From Pyrofollis japonicus (GTDB lineage Archaea; Thermoproteota; Thermoprotei_A; Sulfolobales; Pyrodictiaceae), in NCBI RefSeq assembly GCF_033097485.1, contig NZ_AP028634.1, forward strand, positions 620,001-684,000: a stretch of 64,000 nt of DNA, given 5' to 3'. The position numbers and the translations under genes were made by a program. This document shows, piece after piece, positions 1,665 through 29,885 of the stretch (position 1 is its first letter; each line of letters starts with the position of its first letter). Below the pieces are notes generated by a model. That model worked only from the letters and a program-made list of their open reading frames with translations. It was not told where the DNA came from and did not search any database.

Positions 1665-1926
1665 ATTGCGTGTTTGTCCTAGTCTTCTTCATCTTTAAAT
1701 TCCTCTTTCTTTTCTCATTGGAACCTGTCTTTGGTGGAGTTGTAAGGCTTCTTGGGAACAATGTTTCAAATCCATACATTTCCATGAGAACAATATGGGA
1801 TAGAGCAGAATGGAGGAGTATTGTAAATCAACATTCACTAGCCTTTTATAAGTAATCAATGTTCTAATAGAAATAAATACCCAGACCATAGCAAAGACTA
1901 TTCGGATCCCAAAAGGGAACATACCT
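1665..1926 (+). promoter_or_regulatory. Leader of CRISPR array 1
   Basis: This segment is near-identical over its first 140 bases to the leader at 27222-27481, and to the reverse complements of 24957-25210 and (more diverged) 10708-10970. Each lies immediately before the first intact repeat of an array, which defines it as the leader. A TATA-like box (TTTTATAA, 1844-1851) lies about 75 bases before the first repeat and is a likely pre-crRNA promoter. Close to the repeat is ATTCGGATCCCAAAAGGGAA, which contains a CCC-AAAA-GGG hairpin found in all four leaders. In type I systems the leader directs polarised spacer acquisition. The open frame over this segment is a chance reading, since the conservation is at DNA level. 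Confidence 0.85.
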
Positions 1927-2912
1927 GCTAAACTCAAAAGAGAATTGTAAGTCCGGATCTCCTCTAGGTACTCCTTGAGCGACTCAGGCACCGCTAAACT
2001 CAAAAGAGAATTGTAAGCTGTCTCCAGTAGTTTTGGCGTCATGTAGGGCCCTGAGATCTCGAGCTAAACTCAAAAGAGAATTGTAAGTGTCTCTGCCAAG
2101 CTCGTATACCTAGACGGCACTGTGGCGATCATGCTAAACTCAAAAGAGAATTGTAAGTGATTATCTGTACGTCGTTGGCCGAGACTGCTGCCTCGAGCGC
2201 TGGCTAAACTCAAAAGAGAATTGTAAGCTCGTCTATTGGTACGCATTCGCACTCGCAGCCAAGGTTCCCGGCTAAACTCAAAAGAGAATTGTAAGCTTGC
2301 TTCTTCTAGCTCCTCTACCGCCCACATGAACGCCGTAGTCATTGGCTAAACTCAAAAGAGAATTGTAAGGTAAGAACCACATTGGGCCTCTCTTTCTCAT
2401 AAGCGTCTAGCTAAACTCAAAAGAGAATTGTAAGTCCGAGCATCTGCATTATCAAGCTTAGGTTGTAGTCTGAGTAGCTAAACTCAAAAGAGAATTGTAA
2501 GCAATGGCCAGAAGAGAAGCTAAAAGATATGAGTGAAGACATAGGCTAAACTCAAAAGAGAATTGTAAGAGAACGTGCCCCAGGAGTACCAGGATCTGGT
2601 TAACGTGGTCAAGCTAAACTCAAAAGAGAATTGTAAGCCTATCCACATAATGCGTTTCTTGTAAGCGTGTTTAACGAGGAGCTAAACTCAAAAGAGAATT
2701 GTAAGCTTCAACCTATTGTCTGCCAAGCCGAGCCATCCCACACCTGCTAAACTCAAAAGAGAATTGTAAGGTAGTAACGGCTGTTGACAAGAGCATCTTT
2801 GAGAAGATACTGAAGCTAAACTCAAAAGAGAATTGTAAGATAGTACTCCCTTATCTTGGCCTCAATGTAGTTGAGCACGGATAAACTCAATAGAGTCAAT
2901 AGAGAATTGTAC
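1927..2912 (+). CRISPR. CRISPR array 1: 14 intact 25-nt repeats plus a degenerate last repeat
   Basis: Intact repeats of 25 nt begin at 1927, 1993, 2063, 2133, 2203, 2271, 2345, 2410, 2477, 2545, 2613, 2681, 2746 and 2815. Each starts GCTAAACTC and ends AATTGTAAG. Spacers are about 40-49 nt. Leader on the left and the 3' end ATTGTAAG (the expected 8-nt crRNA 5' handle) both say it is read left to right. The leader-distal end at about 2880-2912 is a damaged repeat with an internal duplication (AATAGAGTC followed by AATAGAG). The repeat is the same as in array 2 and differs in its first bases from arrays 3 and 4. Confidence 0.98.
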
Positions 2913-3106: not shown

Positions 3107-5155
3107 TTAGGTTGTTCTGTGTCCTATTAGTGGTGGTGCGTTCTTGATTGCTAGGTATCCTCCTCTTACAGCGTAGCTTGAGAGTATTGCTGCGTGGTCT
3201 TTGAAGTATGGTAGTCTTCTTCGGTACTCTTGTGGTAGTGGTGTTTCTTCTGCTGTCCTTCTATCTATTCTTAAATATATTTTCGTGTTTGTCAGTACTG
3301 TTATAACTGGTGATACATCTGTTTCCTTGTGGGTTGAGAAGATTATTGATATTCCTCTGCTTCTACCAAGCCTTGCTAGATGCTCTATGCTTATTCGGAG
3401 TATTTCGGCGTATTCTTGGCGGCTTGGCGGGAAGAATAGGTGGGCTTCATCCACCACTAGGAGAGCGTAGCTTGGTATGTTTGTCCGCTCCATGTGTTCT
3501 GCTAGTGTTTTGAGGAGCTGGTAGCCTAGGAACACTTTTGTGCTCTGTGAGTCTACGGCTCTTGTCTTCGATGCCGCGGTTTGGGCTGCGTAGCCCAGGT
3601 CTAGTACAAGTGACCTCGCTTCTAGCTTTTCCATGATTTTTGCTAGTGCTGTGTAGTCTAACTGGGCCCATTTCGGATCCTCGTCCATGTAGCCTATTAC
3701 GCCTAGCTCGCTGAGGGCTCGCAACCTTGACTCCAGGTTGCGGAGCGTCTCGGCGTGGATGACTCTCTTCACCAGGTTCCTGCAATCCTCTGGAGGCCTT
3801 GCTATTATGCCTAATAGCTCTTCTAGCTTCTTGGCGCCGCACTTCGCGACCAACATGCGTAGTGCTTCCCTTGCCCTGGCGGTGAGGTAGGGGTCTAGCT
3901 GTGCGACCTCGTCTATGCTCTCTACTATGATCTTCCTGGGAGCAATGAATAATTCTTGCTTCTCCTCGGCGCCGCTGCAGGATACTATTGCCTCTACCCT
4001 GTAGGTCAGCGGCGCCGGGGTGGGGCTTGGTTCGCTTAGGCTGAGGCTGCAGCCCTGCTTCTCGTAGCTCTTCCTAAGCGTCTCTTCCAGATAATTCGTG
4101 TAGTTGGTTGCTTCCTCTGCGTAGTCGCTGGGGTTGCGGCAGTTTATGCAGGGTATTAGTGCTATCCCGCGGAGCCCTTGGTGTAGTACGGGTTTTCCTT
4201 GCTCGGCGCTTGCCCCGTATAGTTGAAGGACTGCGGCGGCTTCTGGGTCTACTCGTTCTCCTGGTATGTGGCCTGGTAGTAGGCCTGCCACGTAGTCGCT
4301 GCTGGCGTCGAGAACCACTATGTGGACGCCGGGATGCCTCGAGGCGTCCAGCATCATGTTTTTCACTAGGCTTGTCTTGCCGCTGCCCGTGGTCCCGGTG
4401 ACTAGCACGTGCTTTACGAGGACGCTCCACGGCAGCCTTATCGCCACCGGCTTGCCGTCGGCGAGGTAGAGGGAGTCCATTACGCCGAGGCCGCCTACGA
4501 GTACTCCTTCCCGGCTAGGGGCTAGTAGCGCCTCTAGTACCTTGGGCGAGGGAGCTATAACCGGGCTATTGGGGTCCGGGGGTATGGTTGGCGCAGAGTA
4601 GCCTAGCTTCTCGACAATACCCGCCACTATGCTTGCGGCCTCGTCGCTGCGGCTCCTCGCTGCTTCGGCAATCTCTTTCACGTGTTCTCCTAGGTGGACT
4701 AGGAGGAGGGGGCGGAGCATGAGCCTCAGCGAGACAACATTCGCTGCTATGCTGAGCGGGTGCAGGGTTTCGAGGGGCACTGTTACTAGTGGTTGCTGGG
4801 CTCCGAGAACCCTCGTGCCGCTTGGCTTCACTGTGGAGGAGACGGAGGCGAGTATGAGCGAGAGAGTCTTCGGGTCAACGACCACGTAGTAGTAGCCCTC
4901 GCCGAGCATAGAGGGATTCTCATGGGCTAGCCTCACCCACGTCTCGGGGGGAATGTCTACGGGTATCTCGTCTCCGCCTACGTCCTCGGTGAGCGCAACC
5001 CTGCCGACGATGAAGCCGGTAGAGGATATGGCGTGTGCTACCTCGTCTGCCAGCCTCGCTCTCTCCCCGTATTGGCTGAAGAGCTCCTTTCTCTCAGCAA
5101 CAACCTCGTCTACTAGGCGGAGAGCATTCTCACGGATATCCTCCTCGTCCAACAC
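3107..5155 (-). CDS. herA: HerA-family DNA translocase/helicase, enlarged
   Basis: This 682-residue protein has a Walker A motif GTTGSGKTS near residue 252, a Walker B LLVVDEAHLFFP near residue 563, and a C-terminal STHKETD segment (sensor-like Thr/His) followed by an Arg-rich motif, as in HerA/FtsK hexameric ATPases. HerA drives NurA-mediated DNA end resection with Mre11-Rad50. The upstream neighbour, 21 bases away on the same strand, is NurA-like, which supports the call. It is longer than typical HerA (about 500 residues). Extra sequence, with scattered Cys, sits between the two Walker motifs. Position beside CRISPR arrays and cas1 suggests a paralogue tied to this locus. Start GTG 5155; TTG 5152 is an alternative. 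Confidence 0.8.
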   Translation of the reverse strand: MLDEEDIRENALRLVDEVVAERKELFSQYGERARLADEVAHAISSTGFIVGRVALTEDVGGDEIPVDIPPETWVRLAHENPSMLGEGYYYVVVDPKTLSLILASVSSTVKPSGTRVLGAQQPLVTVPLETLHPLSIAANVVSLRLMLRPLLLVHLGEHVKEIAEAARSRSDEAASIVAGIVEKLGYSAPTIPPDPNSPVIAPSPKVLEALLAPSREGVLVGGLGVMDSLYLADGKPVAIRLPWSVLVKHVLVTGTTGSGKTSLVKNMMLDASRHPGVHIVVLDASSDYVAGLLPGHIPGERVDPEAAAVLQLYGASAEQGKPVLHQGLRGIALIPCINCRNPSDYAEEATNYTNYLEETLRKSYEKQGCSLSLSEPSPTPAPLTYRVEAIVSCSGAEEKQELFIAPRKIIVESIDEVAQLDPYLTARAREALRMLVAKCGAKKLEELLGIIARPPEDCRNLVKRVIHAETLRNLESRLRALSELGVIGYMDEDPKWAQLDYTALAKIMEKLEARSLVLDLGYAAQTAASKTRAVDSQSTKVFLGYQLLKTLAEHMERTNIPSYALLVVDEAHLFFPPSRQEYAEILRISIEHLARLGRSRGISIIFSTHKETDVSPVITVLTNTKIYLRIDRRTAEETPLPQEYRRRLPYFKDHAAILSSYAVRGGYLAIKNAPPLIGHRTT

Positions 5156-5176
5156 CTATGCACCCCTTCTCCCGCT

Positions 5177-6712
5177 CTACATGGCGGTGAGCTGGAGCAA
5201 GGTATCATAGGTAAAAGTAACCACGTCGCGTAACCTGCTAAACCAGGTAAGTGCCACTGTCTTCGAGACGGTCCTGGCGACGCGGTCTGCGAGCACTATA
5301 GGGGCAGGGGCCTCCAGGGCACCGGGGCTCGTCATTAGCCACGCTATCTCTCTGAGCACTACTAGGTCATTATCCACGACGGTTCTGATGATGTCCTCGT
5401 TGTCCTCCAGGGTCTCCACGTGTATCTCTCCTTTCTGGTCGAGGCGGACAGGGTGCTCGGTGTGCAGCTGTGGAAACTCTACGCGGATTATTCGGTGCCC
5501 GCCGAGCCCTGTCTTTACGACGAGGTAGTAGCTCCTCTTTACGACGTAGGGGGTGCCCCTGGCCTCCCTGTCTATGCCTGCGAGGGTTTCGCCGCTACGG
5601 GTAACCTTCTTGTTATAGAAGGGGATCGGGTGCTGCCCTCCTAGACCGAGGGCGTTGAGCAGGGCCTCCCAGAGGCTCTTGGCACTTATTATGCTTATGA
5701 CGGGACCTATTGCGATACCTATCCCGTATGCGTATGGCTGCATAACTGGATAGAAGCCCCGTTCCGAGAGGAGCGCTTCCACGAGTTGCGGATCCGTAGG
5801 GGGTAGCTGTGAGTCAGGGTTGAGGCTTGTAAGCGCGTTCACTAGTACCCTGCTCCTATTTATCCTCTTAACCACGCCCATTACGAGCACGCTTCTCCGA
5901 GAAAGCGAGGCAACTATCCTGATTCTTTTCAGGGCGTTTAACAAGTAGCTAAGAGTATAGACCGCCTCTACTAGGATTGCTGGCCCGCTCCCGCGGAATT
6001 GGGCCATGTTGTAAAACCTGACAAGCAGGCCCGGTGTCATGTAGACCGGGCCGTCAACCATGACCCTGGTATACCTTGTCGCGAGGACGGGGGAAGAAGA
6101 TATGTAGGAGAGCGCGTTGTTCTCCACAAGAGTACGGTTCTCGTCCAGCATTGTCGAGACGTTGTATCCGTTCCCGTATCCGAGGCTCTGTAGTGCTCCA
6201 CAACCAGTACTCTTCTTGCTATTACAGCCTATCGCGTCAGCAAGCTTAGCGGGATCCACAAGCGGCCTCGTCACGGTGTAGCGCAGGCCCGTGCCCGGCA
6301 ACTCGGGGGCAAGACTTGCCACTGGCGTATTATTGGCGCCGACTACGGGATATACACCGGTATCGGGATAGGTTGCCACAACATAGACTCCGTCAAGAAT
6401 GCTCGTCGCGACTGCATAGGCTCCGACGAGGAGGTTATAGGCTTCGAGCTTCCTACTACTACCGTCAACACCAATGTACTCATAGGCGGGCTTATCCGGG
6501 GCGATCACGTAGATGAGCTTTTCGAGGCTTTTCTGCTCGCGTATGGGGAGCTCTGAGCGTACGACCTTCCTGCCAGCATCTTGTACCTCGTCCGTCGAGG
6601 CTTCGTCGGTTGGCGGGGGGAGGGTTAGCTTGCTGGGGGGCTTCCTCTTAACGGCTTGTGCAACGCTCTCTGCCTCATAGGCTATGTCGGCTATGGTTGC
6701 GAGCGGGGACAC
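5177..6712 (-). CDS. nurA: NurA-like 5'-3' nuclease
   Basis: This 511-residue protein carries two features of the NurA fold: an N-terminal GVDGSS motif (VDGS, metal-binding Asp), and a later strand VMVDGPVYM giving a second acidic residue. Near the C-terminus is the usual segment with conserved Pro and Asp before a helix (APIVLADRVARTVSK). NurA is an RNase H-like nuclease that resects DNA ends inside the HerA ring. It lies directly upstream of the herA-like gene in an apparent two-gene operon. Both proteins are larger than standard family members, so this may be a specialised second pair. GTG start at 6712, 65 bases from the divergent TGT-like gene. Confidence 0.75.
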   Translation of the reverse strand: MSPLATIADIAYEAESVAQAVKRKPPSKLTLPPPTDEASTDEVQDAGRKVVRSELPIREQKSLEKLIYVIAPDKPAYEYIGVDGSSRKLEAYNLLVGAYAVATSILDGVYVVATYPDTGVYPVVGANNTPVASLAPELPGTGLRYTVTRPLVDPAKLADAIGCNSKKSTGCGALQSLGYGNGYNVSTMLDENRTLVENNALSYISSSPVLATRYTRVMVDGPVYMTPGLLVRFYNMAQFRGSGPAILVEAVYTLSYLLNALKRIRIVASLSRRSVLVMGVVKRINRSRVLVNALTSLNPDSQLPPTDPQLVEALLSERGFYPVMQPYAYGIGIAIGPVISIISAKSLWEALLNALGLGGQHPIPFYNKKVTRSGETLAGIDREARGTPYVVKRSYYLVVKTGLGGHRIIRVEFPQLHTEHPVRLDQKGEIHVETLEDNEDIIRTVVDNDLVVLREIAWLMTSPGALEAPAPIVLADRVARTVSKTVALTWFSRLRDVVTFTYDTLLQLTAM

Positions 6713-6777
6713 TCGTGGGAACCCGGTAGTAATACCTTTTAGTCCTCGATATAAGGCTTCCTACCGGATACTGCACC

Positions 6778-7821
6778 TTGGCGAGAATATACTTCGTCCA
6801 TAGCCTCACCCAGCTAAACCCTATGCTGTGGAAAAACATCGGGCACCCACACGTAATGGTTTCCGCAGACGACGTTGCCAAGAAGATGCCTACTGCGGTG
6901 AAACAGCTACGCGGGCTAGACGTGATAGTCGATAGCGGGGGCTACCGGCTGATAAGTAGGCGGCGCCTACCGGAGCCCGAGAAGGTCCTAGAGGTGCAGA
7001 AGGCATTATACGAGGAGGTCGGCGCCTTCCCCGTTCTGCTCGACACACCTGTCCCGCACCCCCTTCGGGCGAGCGATGCGGAGTTCCGTGCAGCTAACAA
7101 GGCTACGGCGCGCAACGCTAGGCTCTGGCAACGAGTCTTCGGAGACCACTTCCTCTACCCTCTCCACGCACAAACAGGGCAACAGCTGAGAGAGGCCCTG
7201 GATCTAGCAAGGCGGGTTGCTGGCGGCCATGCCGGGGCTTTTGGGCTTGGAAGCCTAGCCCCTCTGGCCCGCTATGACCCCGGCAGGCTCCTTGAAGCTG
7301 TTGCCGAGGCCCGCCTCCTCATAGATACTCGTCTCCATGTATTCGGCGTGGGGAACAGCATAGCCATCCTCCTCCTAATGCTCCGAATAGCGGACAGCGT
7401 TGATACTAGTAGCCCGCTCGCGGACGCGAAATACGGCTTAGCAAGGGACCCCATAAGCTTCTCATTGCTCCAAGTAGCTCCACGTAAGGGTGGGAGAAGA
7501 GCGGCTGACCCCGCCGAGCTGGCTTCTCGCTGCAAGTGCCCCGTTTGCAAAACGAACCCTAGGGCTCTCTCCGAGTGGGGGCGTCGGGGCATCCTTGCGC
7601 GCACAATTCATAACGCGTACCACTTACTGAGAGCAGCCAGAGACCCCGCACTGGCATCCAGGATGCTGAAGAAGAACCGGCTCCTGCTTAGGGCTCTCAG
7701 TAGGAGCGAGGTTAGGAGTAGGCTAATGAGCCTAAATAACGGCTATGAATGCACGGTACTGGGTTTTCTCCCGAAGGGCCTTAGCGAGGCTCCAAGCATA
7801 GGCGTAGACGTGGTCTCTTAG
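6778..7821 (+). CDS. TGT-superfamily transglycosylase without PUA domain (arcTGT/DpdA-like)
   Basis: This 347-residue protein matches the TIM-barrel of tRNA-guanine transglycosylases. It has VDSGGY at Asp52 (general acid/base position), an FGVGN loop near 189, a nucleophile-type motif ADSVDTSSP at Asp206-209, and a zinc site CKCPVC (Cys252, 254, 257) with His278 in an IHNAYHLL helix. Family members swap guanine for a 7-deazaguanine in tRNA (arcTGT, preQ0 for archaeosine) or in DNA (DpdA). The C-terminal PUA and accessory domains of archaeal arcTGT are missing. It may therefore be a split arcTGT, or a DNA-acting member linked to the CRISPR/NurA-HerA neighbourhood. TTG start at 6778. Its last 90 bases overlap cas1 on the other strand. 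Confidence 0.72.
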   Translation: MARIYFVHSLTQLNPMLWKNIGHPHVMVSADDVAKKMPTAVKQLRGLDVIVDSGGYRLISRRRLPEPEKVLEVQKALYEEVGAFPVLLDTPVPHPLRASDAEFRAANKATARNARLWQRVFGDHFLYPLHAQTGQQLREALDLARRVAGGHAGAFGLGSLAPLARYDPGRLLEAVAEARLLIDTRLHVFGVGNSIAILLLMLRIADSVDTSSPLADAKYGLARDPISFSLLQVAPRKGGRRAADPAELASRCKCPVCKTNPRALSEWGRRGILARTIHNAYHLLRAARDPALASRMLKKNRLLLRALSRSEVRSRLMSLNNGYECTVLGFLPKGLSEAPSIGVDVVS

Positions 7822-8739
7822 GGGCCTCTTCTTTCCCTCAAAGTCTTTCACCTGGGATGTGAGGGCATTGGTTACTCTTTCTGCTATCTTTCTGCGCGAC
7901 TCATAGCTCAAGCTGCCCTTATAGGAGTCGAAGAGCGCTGGGTCAATGTTCGTGAAAAGCACTCGGTCTATGAGGGGCTTGAAAGTATCGCTGTAGTCGT
8001 AGACGAGGCTCACCCGCCCGCTTCGATCAGCGTGGAGGAAGCCGGCATAGGGGTCTAGGCCTACAACTATAAGGGCGTCATAGGCTACACCGTAGAGTAT
8101 TGCATAGGCGTAGCTTATAGCCATGTTGACGGCGTCCTCGCCGCGAGGATTTCTACCAGTAAAACCATAGTCTCCGGGGAGCAGGGCCGCTAGCACCTGC
8201 CAATACTTCTTCGCAGCCCTTGCCTCAACCCCTCTAACCCTGTCTGCGTCTAGGCTCCCGCTCTTAACTAGCTTGGAGAGCTCATAGGCCTCGTCCTCGA
8301 CCCGGTAAGCCTCATCCCTTATCCACGGCTCTCTCCTGCTCTTAGAAATATAGCGTAGCACCCTTGCCTGATTAACTATCTTAGCCCTCACCATCTCAGC
8401 AGCGTAGCGGAGCGCGTCTCCGCGCAGCTTGGCCTCGTACTGGGCCATGCGGGCCTCAACAGTCTTGTTAACCCTATCGATAGGCCGGTACTCTGCAACC
8501 ACGTGGCCCCGATGACCGAGCACAAGGACACGTATACCTAGCTCGGCGAGCCTTCGCAGAGCCCTACCGCTTATACTAACGGCACCCGTAGCCAACAAGA
8601 CGAGCTCAGCATCATAGGTCACTGGCACCGGGTCAGAGCCCGGAGCCTGGACATAGACGACACCACTCCTAACGAATACCCTTGCACCCGGTGTTGAGAC
8701 AACAAACACCTCGCCCAAAGGGGAGACACCCCTCTCCAA
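7732..8739 (-). CDS. cas1: Cas1 CRISPR integrase
   Basis: This 335-residue Cas1 has the expected metal ligands: Glu172 in GVEARAAKKYW, His236 in GFLHADRSGR, and Asp248/Asp251 in LVYDYSDTFKP. An N-terminal beta domain precedes the helical catalytic domain. Cas1 with Cas2 integrates new spacers at the leader end of arrays. The next gene upstream on the same strand is a Csa1/Cas4-type gene, 18 bases away, and array 2 lies just beyond it. Its 3' end overlaps the convergent TGT-like gene by 90 bases, so the last 30 codons are constrained on both strands. No Cas2 gene was found nearby. Confidence 0.96.
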   Translation of the reverse strand: MERGVSPLGEVFVVSTPGARVFVRSGVVYVQAPGSDPVPVTYDAELVLLATGAVSISGRALRRLAELGIRVLVLGHRGHVVAEYRPIDRVNKTVEARMAQYEAKLRGDALRYAAEMVRAKIVNQARVLRYISKSRREPWIRDEAYRVEDEAYELSKLVKSGSLDADRVRGVEARAAKKYWQVLAALLPGDYGFTGRNPRGEDAVNMAISYAYAILYGVAYDALIVVGLDPYAGFLHADRSGRVSLVYDYSDTFKPLIDRVLFTNIDPALFDSYKGSLSYESRRKIAERVTNALTSQVKDFEGKKRPLRDHVYAYAWSLAKALREKTQYRAFIAVI

Positions 8740-8757: not shown

Positions 8758-9582
8758 CTAGGCCTCGGCAGGCGGGCATCCAGGAGCCCCGCGGAAGGGG
8801 CACCACGGTGGACAATTCTCTCCAGCAGGGCCAGGATCAACACTATTATCAACTATCATTGCTACCTCGTCCCGAGCCCTCAGAAAGCGGCGGCGAAGCC
8901 CATCATCTATTACCACGACACGCCACTCTAGCCAGGGCTCGCCCGAGTCTCTGCGACGAATATAGAGAGCAACACCATAGTCCACGGGCAAGCCAGTCCA
9001 AGCCTCGAGCGCCAAGGCGTAGCCAGCGAGCTGAAGCTCCTTACCTTCACCGTAACGCGTGGACGAACTAGCAGTAGTCACTTCTACAGGGAGAAACCCG
9101 ACGAGCAAGTCTGGGCGCACTATGTCGCTAAGCCCTACAGCCGCCCCCGGAATCTGAGGCTCGACACGTACAGGGATATCAGCATCAATGATCGACTGAA
9201 GGGCTAGCCCAGCTCCAACCGTGTACACCCGTTGAAGGAACCCATCTATCCTCACACCAAGCCTTTTACCAAGCCTCCACATAGCCCGAGACAAGGCCTC
9301 TAGGTCGGATACGCCTCTATCTACGAGCCTAAAGGGCTCAAGAAAGAACTCGTGAACTATAGCACCATAAACGGCCTCCTTGCTTCTCTTAGGCTTGATC
9401 CGCATAACACGGCGCAGAAACACATCACGATGCACAGGACAAATGCCCGCAACCTCGCTAGGCGAGGGACGATAACGATACCGTGGAGAAACATAGTCGA
9501 AACGCCAACCCCTTATCTCTGCAAAGACCCCACCCTCAGCCCCGAGGCTGCGTATAAAGTCCCACACTCTGCGGGGAAGCAA
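8758..9582 (-). CDS. csa1: Csa1/Cas4-family Fe-S nuclease of the adaptation module
   Basis: This 274-residue protein has four Cys in the Cas4 arrangement, Cys48 near the N-terminus and Cys257, Cys261 and Cys269 at the C-terminus, which would hold a 4Fe-4S cluster. Between them are PD-(D/E)XK-type elements: His in GAIVHEFF, Asp in RPDLLVG, Glu in LPVEVTT, and a QLAGYALALE helix. Cas4 proteins trim pre-spacers and help select the PAM and orientation before Cas1-Cas2 integration. The one-plus-three Cys spacing and I-A context fit the Csa1 branch, though classical Cas4 is possible. It forms an operon with cas1, and its start lies 84 bases from the leader-distal end of array 2. Confidence 0.85.
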   Translation of the reverse strand: MLPRRVWDFIRSLGAEGGVFAEIRGWRFDYVSPRYRYRPSPSEVAGICPVHRDVFLRRVMRIKPKRSKEAVYGAIVHEFFLEPFRLVDRGVSDLEALSRAMWRLGKRLGVRIDGFLQRVYTVGAGLALQSIIDADIPVRVEPQIPGAAVGLSDIVRPDLLVGFLPVEVTTASSSTRYGEGKELQLAGYALALEAWTGLPVDYGVALYIRRRDSGEPWLEWRVVVIDDGLRRRFLRARDEVAMIVDNSVDPGPAGENCPPWCPFRGAPGCPPAEA

Positions 9583-9666
9583 AACAGTACGCCAGTAATA
9601 CCTTATAAAGATATTAGTTATACATAAACCCTACCACCAACAATCAAACAAGCACCAAGGCCTCAT

Positions 9667-10707
9667 CTTACAATTCTCTTTTGAGTTTAGCAGCTCGTCA
9701 AGAAGTTCCTTGAGCTCCGCGACTCAGCGCCCAACACTTACAATTCTCTTTTGAGTTTAGCGCTTGGAATATCTCGGCACAGTGTGCCTCACCGATAACT
9801 TACAATTCTCTTTTGAGTTTAGCACGAGAACGTAACCGAGCTCGTTAAGAGCATCGGGCTCGGGATCTTACAATTCTCTTTTGAGTTTAGCTTCCTTGCT
9901 GAAGGTTGAGGCTCGTGGAGTAGAGTATCTGCTTACAATTCTCTTTTGAGTTTAGCCTTTTGTTGCTCTCTGGCTGCCCCTCGTGAGGATAGGGTTCTAC
10001 CTTACAATTCTCTTTTGAGTTTAGCAAGGCCTGTTCCATCACCACCTCCACCGACAGGTGGGAGGACTTACAATTCTCTTTTGAGTTTAGCCCGGCCATA
10101 AACTTGCGTGATCTGGATAGACCCCTGCAACTTGGCTTACAATTCTCTTTTGAGTTTAGCCTGTGGGCACTCTGCTAAACCGTGCAATACTCGTAGTAAC
10201 GGACTTACAATTCTCTTTTGAGTTTAGCTGATTAGTATTGCCTACTCTACACATTGTTGCAACACTTACTGATGCTTACAATTCTCTTTTGAGTTTAGCT
10301 CAACATTGCCCTTGGAAAGAACCTGCTTGAGGGCTTGGGATCTCTTACAATTCTCTTTTGAGTTTAGCAGCGAGACAATAAGGAGGGCTTTACGAATAAC
10401 GGCGTGTATGGACTTACAATTCTCTTTTGAGTTTAGCGAAAGCTAGCAGAGAAGTACAGGAGGATAATACACAGGGTATAGCTTACAATTCTCTTTTGAG
10501 TTTAGCTACCTAACCCTTACCCTATCCAATTTTCGGGAAAATTACTTACAATTCTCTTTTGAGTTTAGCCGAGCGTGTAGACGTCTATGTCCGTGAGCTT
10601 GTCGGTCAGCTTTCTTACAATTCTCTTTTGAGTTTAGCCAGCCAGCTCCCCTAGCTCCCCGGGCGAGAAGCCATCCCCGCCACTTACAATTCTCTTTTGA
10701 GTTTAGC
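9667..10707 (-). CRISPR. CRISPR array 2: 16 repeats of 25 nt
   Basis: On the plus strand each repeat reads CTTACAATTC... to ...GTTTAGC, starting at 9667, 9737, 9799, 9867, 9932, 10001, 10067, 10136, 10204, 10275, 10344, 10413, 10482, 10545, 10614 and 10683. The 15 spacers are 37-46 nt. The leader is on the right, so the array is transcribed on the minus strand toward csa1-cas1. All repeats, including the leader-distal one, look intact, unlike the decayed last repeats of arrays 1, 3 and 4. The repeat is identical to that of array 1. Confidence 0.98.
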
Positions 10708-10970
10708 AGGTATGCTCCCTGTTGGGATCCGAATGATTAAGGCTATGGTACGGGTATTTATCTTCTTCGGAACACTATTGGCTTATAAGCTGTTAATGAG
10801 TCATAATTAGCGACAACTCTTCTTTCTACTCCATCCAATAATGTTCTGATGGATTTGCATAGATTTGAAACGTTGTTCCCAAGGACAAATTCAAATCTGT
10901 CTAGAGGGTGTTCTCAAGGGAAAACAAAGAGGAATTTGGATGTGTTAATAAGTTGTAGATTCTTGATTAT
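10708..10970 (-). promoter_or_regulatory. Leader of CRISPR array 2 (diverged copy)
   Basis: Read on the minus strand this matches the other three leaders. Shared blocks are AAATTCCTCTTT, CTTGGGAACAA, GTTTCAAAT, and the near-repeat block AATAGTGTTCCGAAGAAG followed by ATAAATACCCGTA. It is more diverged than the others, with a changed stretch around 10880-10930. A TATA-like GCTTATAAGC palindrome (10781-10790) lies about 75 bases from the first repeat. The conserved hairpin near the repeat is CCC-AACA-GGG rather than CCC-AAAA-GGG: stem kept, loop changed. Confidence 0.85.
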
Positions 10971-28717: not shown

Positions 28718-28873
28718 TCTTTGTGGTGCTGCATGTAGGCTCGTTGTAGTGTTCTGCTGTGCTGTTTCTCGAAGGCATCGTTTTCCGCATAGCATTTCGC
28801 AGGGGTAGCTTGATAAGCCTGGTAGCGGCTGTTCTGAGGGGCGATGGCCTAGCTGGGACGGGGTGTGCTAGCG

Positions 28874-29221
28874 ATGAGTTTCCTCGTTAAGGCCTGTACA
28901 GAGTTCTCCGCCGCTCATAGCATTAAGGGGCATCCCCGCTGCGGCCGGGTACATGGCCATAATTACCGGGTTTGTGTCTGGCTCCGCGAGGACGAGCCAA
29001 TGGGTATTGACCTAGACGACTTGGAGAAGTGGCTGCGGGTGAACGTTTTCGAGCGTTTCGACCACCGGTACCTAAATGAGTTGCTGGGCCGCGAGACGGT
29101 TACTAGCGAGGACCTCGCAGTCATTGTGGCCAGGGGGCTCGCCGAGTCTTTCGGTGATAGGGTTGAGCGAGTCGAGGTCTGTGAGACCCGAGACCTATGC
29201 GTTGAGTACTCGCCGCGATAG
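28874..29221 (+). CDS. queD: QueD, 6-carboxy-tetrahydropterin synthase
   Basis: This protein of about 115 residues has the 6-pyruvoyl-tetrahydropterin synthase fold: TEFSAAHSIKGHP with zinc His, Cys in HPRCGRVHGHNYRV with the two further zinc His, and FDHRYLNEL near the C-terminal half. QueD converts dihydroneopterin triphosphate to 6-carboxy-tetrahydropterin on the way to preQ0, the precursor of archaeosine. ATG 28874 is preferred; GTG 28865 is three codons upstream. The next gene, queE, overlaps or abuts the stop, making a biosynthetic pair. The pathway's later gene queC is not in the window. Confidence 0.92.
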   Translation: MSFLVKACTEFSAAHSIKGHPRCGRVHGHNYRVCVWLREDEPMGIDLDDLEKWLRVNVFERFDHRYLNELLGRETVTSEDLAVIVARGLAESFGDRVERVEVCETRDLCVEYSPR

Positions 29222-29885
29222 CCTATTGGTCGCTGAGACGTTTCTCAGCCTCCAGGGAGAAGGCCCGTTTACTGGGCGCCGAAGCCTCTTCATAAGGCTT
29301 GCTGGCTGTAATCTCCGCTGCCCCTTCTGCGACACAAAGTACTCATGGGACGTGAAGAACGCCAGGGAGATGACCATTGAGGAGCTAGTAGTACTCGTGG
29401 GCAGGGCTGACCCCACCCTAGTCGTGGTTACCGGCGGGGAGCCCCTGCTCCAGCGAGACGCGCTGGAAGAACTAGTGCGCATGCTCTACAGGCTCGGCTA
29501 CCCGGTACAGGTAGAGACCAATGGTACGCTCGAGGCACCAGAGCCCGGAACCCCCCTCTCCCAGGCGTTCTTCGTCGTCTCTCCGAAGGACGTGCCCATA
29601 CCAGTCCCTGGCGCGAAGACGCACCCTTCTTGGTTTGACCTCGTGCGCCGCTACAACAACGTATGGTTCAAGTTCGTGGCGGCGAACAAACAGCACGTGG
29701 AGAAGATAATAGAGTATGTAGAAAACAACGGTATACCGAGGAAAAGAGTATACATAATGCCATTGACGAGTGAAGGGATGACAATAGAGGAGATACTGAA
29801 GCTTCACCGCGAGATAGCAGAAGAAGCGCTACAAAACCGGGTAAACTTTAGCCCAAGACTCCACCTCCTACTCGGCCTAAAGTAG
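29202..29885 (+). CDS. queE: QueE, 7-carboxy-7-deazaguanine synthase (radical SAM)
   Basis: This protein of about 227 residues has the QueE pattern FLSLQGEGPFTGRRSLFIR followed by the radical SAM cluster motif CNLRCPFCDT, then VVTGGEPLLQ and VETNGTLE for SAM binding. QueE turns 6-carboxy-tetrahydropterin into 7-carboxy-7-deazaguanine. The start is either TTG 29202, overlapping queD by 20 bases, or TTG 29226 just after its stop; neither has a strong ribosome site. Coupling with queD is clear. A TGT-like enzyme in the same window (6778-7821) uses a product of this pathway. Confidence 0.93.
   Translation: MSTRRDSLLVAETFLSLQGEGPFTGRRSLFIRLAGCNLRCPFCDTKYSWDVKNAREMTIEELVVLVGRADPTLVVVTGGEPLLQRDALEELVRMLYRLGYPVQVETNGTLEAPEPGTPLSQAFFVVSPKDVPIPVPGAKTHPSWFDLVRRYNNVWFKFVAANKQHVEKIIEYVENNGIPRKRVYIMPLTSEGMTIEEILKLHREIAEEALQNRVNFSPRLHLLLGLK

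Follow-up and report, generated by a model that had tools for sequence, protein, structure and literature searches.

The gene at positions 6778–7821 of the window (the whole 64,000-nucleotide stretch of Pyrofollis japonicus DNA analyzed here) encodes a TGT-like enzyme without a PUA domain. On balance, we favor a transglycosylase that acts on guanine in DNA and represents a new, DpdA-like subfamily; its mark would govern the adjacent NurA-HerA pair. DNA as the substrate is the part of this explanation that we hold most readily and consider fairly likely; a restriction-modification-like logic on top of it is tentative, at somewhat less than an even chance. Its family, its catalytic and zinc residues, purifying selection on the gene, the pairing with NurA-HerA, the separate arcTGT and the preQ0 gene set are directly established. 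The locus comprises the following features.

1912..2840, no strand assigned, CRISPR array of 14 repeats downstream of herA
3107..5155, minus strand, HerA-like ATPase of 682 residues (Walker A GTTGSGKTS, Walker B DEAH; DUF87, E = 5.7e-10)
5177..6712, minus strand, NurA-like nuclease of 511 residues (Pfam matches in the family; invariant D83, E191 and D220)
6713..6777, no strand assigned, divergent intergenic region of 65 bp between the TGT and NurA genes
6750–6755, TATA-like sequence TATAAG, 28 to 23 nt upstream of the TGT start codon
6778..7821, plus strand, PUA-less TGT-like enzyme of 347 residues with a TTG start (Pfam, alignment, AlphaFold and Foldseek)
6931..6933, plus strand, D52 codon (general base position of TGT, motif DSGG)
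7165..7167, plus strand, H130 codon, where tRNA TGTs have their active-site Gln (VQGG)
7402..7404, plus strand, codon of D209 in DTSSP, the nucleophile position
7531..7611, plus strand, zinc site C252-x-C254-x2-C257 ... H278
7732..8739, minus strand, cas1 (Pfam Cas1, 4.5e-57), convergent with the TGT gene, the two 3′ ends sharing 90 bp
8758..9582, minus strand, cas4/csa1 (Pfam Csa1, 4.2e-52)
9666..10721, no strand assigned, CRISPR array of 16 repeats upstream of csa1, its repeats oriented opposite to those of the array at 1912..2840

The preliminary description of this DNA had placed a TGT-like gene without PUA between NurA-HerA (3107–6712, minus strand) and cas1, and both the placement and the assignment hold. 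The protein matches the Pfam TGT family PF01702 (E = 3.4e-6; 26.8 bits, barely above the 26.3-bit cut-off), and a Pfam scan gave no match to PUA, TGT_C2 or DUF5591. The top PDB match found by Foldseek for its AlphaFold model (pLDDT 84.9, pTM 0.84) is the arcTGT 1iq8 (E = 4.7e-10). Orthologs that are ~60% identical show a dN/dS of ~0.2, which is purifying selection, so the gene is no chance open reading frame. The spacing of the TATAAG sequence would be that expected of a leaderless crenarchaeal gene. The catalytic Asp, the nucleophile region and the Cys3-His zinc site that had been read from the sequence are all there: D52, D89, D209 and the zinc ligands C252, C254, C257 and H278 are invariant in all six orthologs. 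D209 corresponds to Asp280 in Z. mobilis Tgt.

The genome (2,005,174 bp, a single contig) also encodes a canonical arcTGT (C1:1878380–1879354; 529 residues; TGT, 1e-85, plus DUF5591) and, ~0.8 kb from it, a separate C2-PUA gene (TGT_C2, 2.4e-22; PUA, 6.1e-10), so tRNA G15 is already covered. The search for a full-length arcTGT and a separate PUA gene that had been advised thus found both, and the window enzyme is not the only TGT of its genome. The missing C1, C2 and PUA domains had raised the option of a split archaeosine TGT, with this gene as one half, serving tRNA G15. That option is ruled out by this genome content, since the two genes elsewhere supply both the full catalytic enzyme with DUF5591 and the C2-PUA part, and the window-TGT family is missing from most genomes of the order; we give the option practically no chance. 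FolE, QueD, QueE, QueC and a QueF-like protein, a complete preQ0 gene set, are encoded in the same genome, so preQ0 would be available to arcTGT and window TGT alike. The queD-queE genes to which the preliminary description had drawn attention are indeed in the window (28865–29885), but they lie 21 kb from the TGT gene and are required for tRNA archaeosine, and are not locus-specific evidence.

A profile search found the window-TGT family in six of the 214 genomes of the order, spread over three families; a seventh match, in G038, was left out as that genome's own 522-residue arcTGT. Three of the six members correspond to the MAG contigs WAOJ01000180.1, JAADDE010000056.1 and WAOT01000037.1, which were matched when genome contigs were scanned with six sequences; a scan with three close sequences gave no match. 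All six ortholog genomes have the TGT gene head to head with a NurA-like gene, which is followed by a HerA-like gene; the gaps between the TGT and NurA start codons, as set here, are 9, 12, 52, 65, 104 and 183 bp. This constant arrangement argues for DNA as the substrate. Pfam NurA (PF09376) is matched by four of five members of the NurA family (best E = 2.2e-9). The window protein itself gave no Pfam match, the NurA profile had only chance matches in the PDB, and the structure model of the window protein (pLDDT 36.7) was too poor to use. The NurA subfamily is distinct, with eight genomes at E < 1e-60 and the next best match at 5e-30. Since P. japonicus has four further NurA-domain genes, the pair beside the TGT is an extra, dedicated one. 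It can do without the TGT, because G009 and G017 (both incomplete genomes) have the pair with no TGT at the locus, which counts against a strict restriction-modification logic; in G145 the contig stops within herA. The NurA gene of G014 (L023:7791–9209) has an in-frame stop, the TGT and HerA genes there being open, and this counts against our preferred explanation.

Other neighbors of the TGT gene vary. Immediately downstream of it in G014 is a pair of genes read from sequence as nucleotidyltransferase-like and HEPN-like (L023:10284–11139), and in G144 a PAPS-reductase-family (PP-loop) gene is convergent with it (L037:2–1099).

At the site of H130, all six orthologs have His. When 42 proteins were compared at this position, Gln was found in all nine tRNA TGTs (including 8/8 arcTGT), and His in all eight phage-type DpdA, in the TGTs of the viruses STSV1 and SIRV2 and in several further PUA-less groups. 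Bacterial DpdA is mixed; the E. cloacae protein has His, and four of the five sampled have Gln. His is for that reason rejected as a strict signature of DNA TGTs, which counts against the DNA reading. It does count against the tRNA type, and in this sense the replacement of Gln favors a DNA substrate. The solved bacterial DpdA 7ui4, related to that of E. cloacae, also has His at the site; its weak match to the window-TGT family profile (E = 0.027) contains AHGW, the nucleophile segment IDSTTPLQQA and the zinc residues CECNICR...HN.

In trees, the window-TGT family forms one clade (100/100), apart from the phage and the bacterial DpdA and from the clade of tRNA TGTs (arcTGT plus E. coli, 98/97), the deep branching order not being settled. 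The phylogeny against arcTGT and DpdA suggested earlier gives the family a clade of its own. Its position outside the tRNA-TGT clade supports a DNA substrate, but an AU test did not reject placement as sister to the tRNA TGTs (p = 0.077), which counts against our explanation. Against the NCBIfam DpdA model NF041059 (cut-off 200 bits), the window TGT (P0001) gave no match at E 0.1 and its best ortholog scored 28.9 bits; true bacterial DpdA scores 482–582 bits. DpdB (DGQHR), whose gene adjoins three sampled bacterial dpdA, was not found by Pfam scan of the five genes that the arrays enclose, and no dpdC gene is adjacent to the window TGT. Because of the tree, the model scores and the absence of DpdB, we do not claim membership in DpdA and regard the family as a new variant. 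The ortholog in G091 carries a C-terminal DUF6884 (1.9e-18), which is also fused to the bacterial DpdA of Nostoc and Paenibacillus, and the shared fusion points to DNA as well. DUF6884 overlaps weak YaaA/DUF328 matches, and DpdC belongs to the YaaA/DUF328 family (PMC12839542). No DUF6884 was found in the P. japonicus genome; this, the DpdA model miss and the lack of an adjacent DpdB or DpdC count against our explanation. The comparison with DpdA drawn in the preliminary description, as regards the missing PUA and a possible DNA substrate, finds support in gene context, the change from Gln to His and domain fusions.

Elsewhere, too, TGTs of the His type that have no PUA sit beside HerA, nucleases or a PCNA-like clamp, as in G327 and on an Aulosira plasmid (both below), which again suggests a DNA substrate; G410 and G451 have one with a PCNA-like clamp (PCNA, 1.1e-28) and an ATPase. 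Published precedent comes from phage DpdA, which is required for 7-deazaguanine in phage DNA (PMC6884629), and from BREX-Related Capture (BRC) systems, which combine a TGT with HerA (PMC12839542).

Several PUA-less TGT loci outside the family were seen along the way. G327 has a His-type enzyme together with a PCNA-like clamp, a DUF5591 protein, HerA, a large ATPase and NurA. At L078:903–10852, L126:8998–17180 and L127:2988–11154, the TGT gene is directly followed by a PCNA-like clamp paralog and a large AAA ATPase; in G451, queC lies two genes upstream of the TGT, and the dpdA of phage 9g likewise adjoins a clamp gene. The Aulosira laxa plasmid AP018313.1 carries a row of HerA-like, SbcD-like, SbcC-like and PUA-less TGT genes (L087:3253–10471). 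Haloferax plasmid NZ_CP106970.1 (L086:4784–11328) encodes a DpdA-like protein of 964 residues with DUF6884 and a second, His-type TGT (344 residues), along with a hypothetical protein, a BrxC/D-like ATPase and QueD. A third TGT-like family, zinc-less and with His at the Gln site, was present in dozens of the 398 Thermoproteota genomes sampled (for example L025:7763–8893, at G000:C1:437.8–438.9 kb, with relatives at L013, L128 and L129). It groups with the viral STSV1 and SIRV2 TGTs in the tree (100/98), is followed in G539 by a DUF5591 (ArcS-type) gene, and is possibly a DNA or a second RNA transglycosylase.

In the mechanism that we propose, the window TGT would replace DNA guanines by preQ0 (7-cyano-7-deazaguanine) made in the cell, presumably the base inserted. 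The exchange would proceed through the usual covalent Asp intermediate at D209, with the zinc-stabilized TIM barrel acting without the C1, C2 and PUA domains that grip tRNA. The divergently transcribed NurA-HerA would read or avoid the mark, such that marked DNA is spared; HerA would drive unmarked, presumably foreign, DNA into NurA, which would degrade it.

The surroundings also invite a connection with CRISPR. The NurA-HerA subfamily adjoins CRISPR arrays or cas genes in six of its eight genomes: besides the arrays, cas1 and csa1 of the window, it lies beside a 53-repeat array and I-A genes in G011 and beside an array and cas6 in G014, an array follows immediately after herA in G144, and in G017 and G009 it adjoins csa1-cas1 on the same strand. 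(The same-strand row NurA-HerA-csa1-cas1-cas2-cas4 of G009, L077:64–6290, with cas2 and cas4 assigned by sequence reading, is the tightest link between NurA-HerA and adaptation seen here.) The DNA-processing and CRISPR neighbors stressed in the preliminary description are thus a real association, but the CRISPR part of it is secondary, since NurA-HerA accompanies the TGT in 6/6 genomes and arrays or cas genes lie near it in 4/6. The module could nevertheless serve CRISPR adaptation, NurA-HerA making fragments for Cas1-Cas4 and the TGT mark shielding host DNA or the array; RecBCD is the fragment-making counterpart in E. coli. A nurA-csm6-herA cluster at Pyrobaculum CRISPR arrays, for which a role in adaptation was proposed (PMC3396285), and the listing of NurA and HerA among putative CRISPR auxiliary genes (PMC10910872) speak for this, as does the frequency of arrays and cas genes beside the subfamily. 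G091, however, has the trio on a 27-kb contig in which no CRISPR array was found, no TGT is present at the locus in the two genomes whose NurA-HerA genes are most closely joined to cas1, and defense genes cluster without acting jointly. We regard the adaptation reading as rather unlikely, and a link of TGT-NurA-HerA to spacer acquisition as possible but speculative. A fuller three-gene system, in which the TGT would place a 7-deazaguanine self-mark on the chromosome and a dedicated NurA-HerA would degrade unmarked DNA and feed Cas1-Cas4, giving a CRISPR memory that tells self from non-self, is less probable again.

An enzyme directed at a second RNA target (another tRNA position, rRNA or crRNA), with NurA-HerA close by only through clustering in a defense island, would account for the nearest sequence (1iq8, 1e-6) and fold both being arcTGT, for the retained zinc site and for the sister placement that the AU test allows. 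It fits poorly with the head-to-head NurA-HerA genes in six genomes of three families, with the missing RNA-binding domain and the His in place of Gln, and with the company that other PUA-less His-type TGTs keep (HerA, nucleases or a sliding clamp); we think it improbable, and modification of array or locus RNAs, as raised earlier, found no support. Crenarchaeal viruses such as STSV1 and SIRV2 do encode His-type TGTs, and the window enzyme might be imagined as a virus-derived counter-modification enzyme with no functional connection to NurA-HerA. Those viral proteins group with the zinc-less family, and collections of phage, plasmid and viral sequences held no close homologs of the window TGT, which removes such an origin from consideration and leaves this reading with a very slight chance.

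Bacteria, phages and certain archaeal viruses are described as having 7-deazaguanine in their DNA; we know of no case in a crenarchaeal chromosome. If it acts on DNA as we favor, the window-TGT family would supply a specific candidate gene for the writer of such a modification, and NurA-HerA a candidate reader or restrainer. To our knowledge, hyperthermophilic archaea lack RecBCD and Chi, and the locus bears on how they could keep CRISPR adaptation away from their own DNA.

The TGT-NurA-HerA trio was not found in the literature searched, which covered few subscription papers, and its closest known counterparts each share part of it. With DpdA the window family has in common the TGT barrel, the catalytic Asp pair and the absence of PUA, a zinc site like that of bacterial DpdA, the His that phage DpdA and 7ui4-type proteins have in place of Gln, and, in one member, the DUF6884 fusion. 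It differs in scoring far under the DpdA cut-off, in forming a separate clade and in having no DpdB, and NurA-HerA replaces the Dpd restriction genes. The arcTGT (TgtA; 1iq8) is nearest in solved fold and sequence and shares the zinc site and the LGS and HxFG motifs; unlike it, the window family has no C1, C2 or PUA, fused or adjacent, has His for Gln and falls outside the tRNA-TGT clade. BRC systems (PMC12839542) likewise bring a HerA translocase and a TGT together, but PglZ, BrxC-like DUF6079, DUF4007 and a STAND NTPase were not found by Pfam scan among the five genes between the arrays, and the window locus has three genes only, with a NurA nuclease in place. The Pyrobaculum nurA-csm6-herA cluster (PMC3396285) is alike in being an extra NurA-HerA copy at CRISPR arrays; the window locus has no csm6 and instead carries a divergently transcribed TGT.
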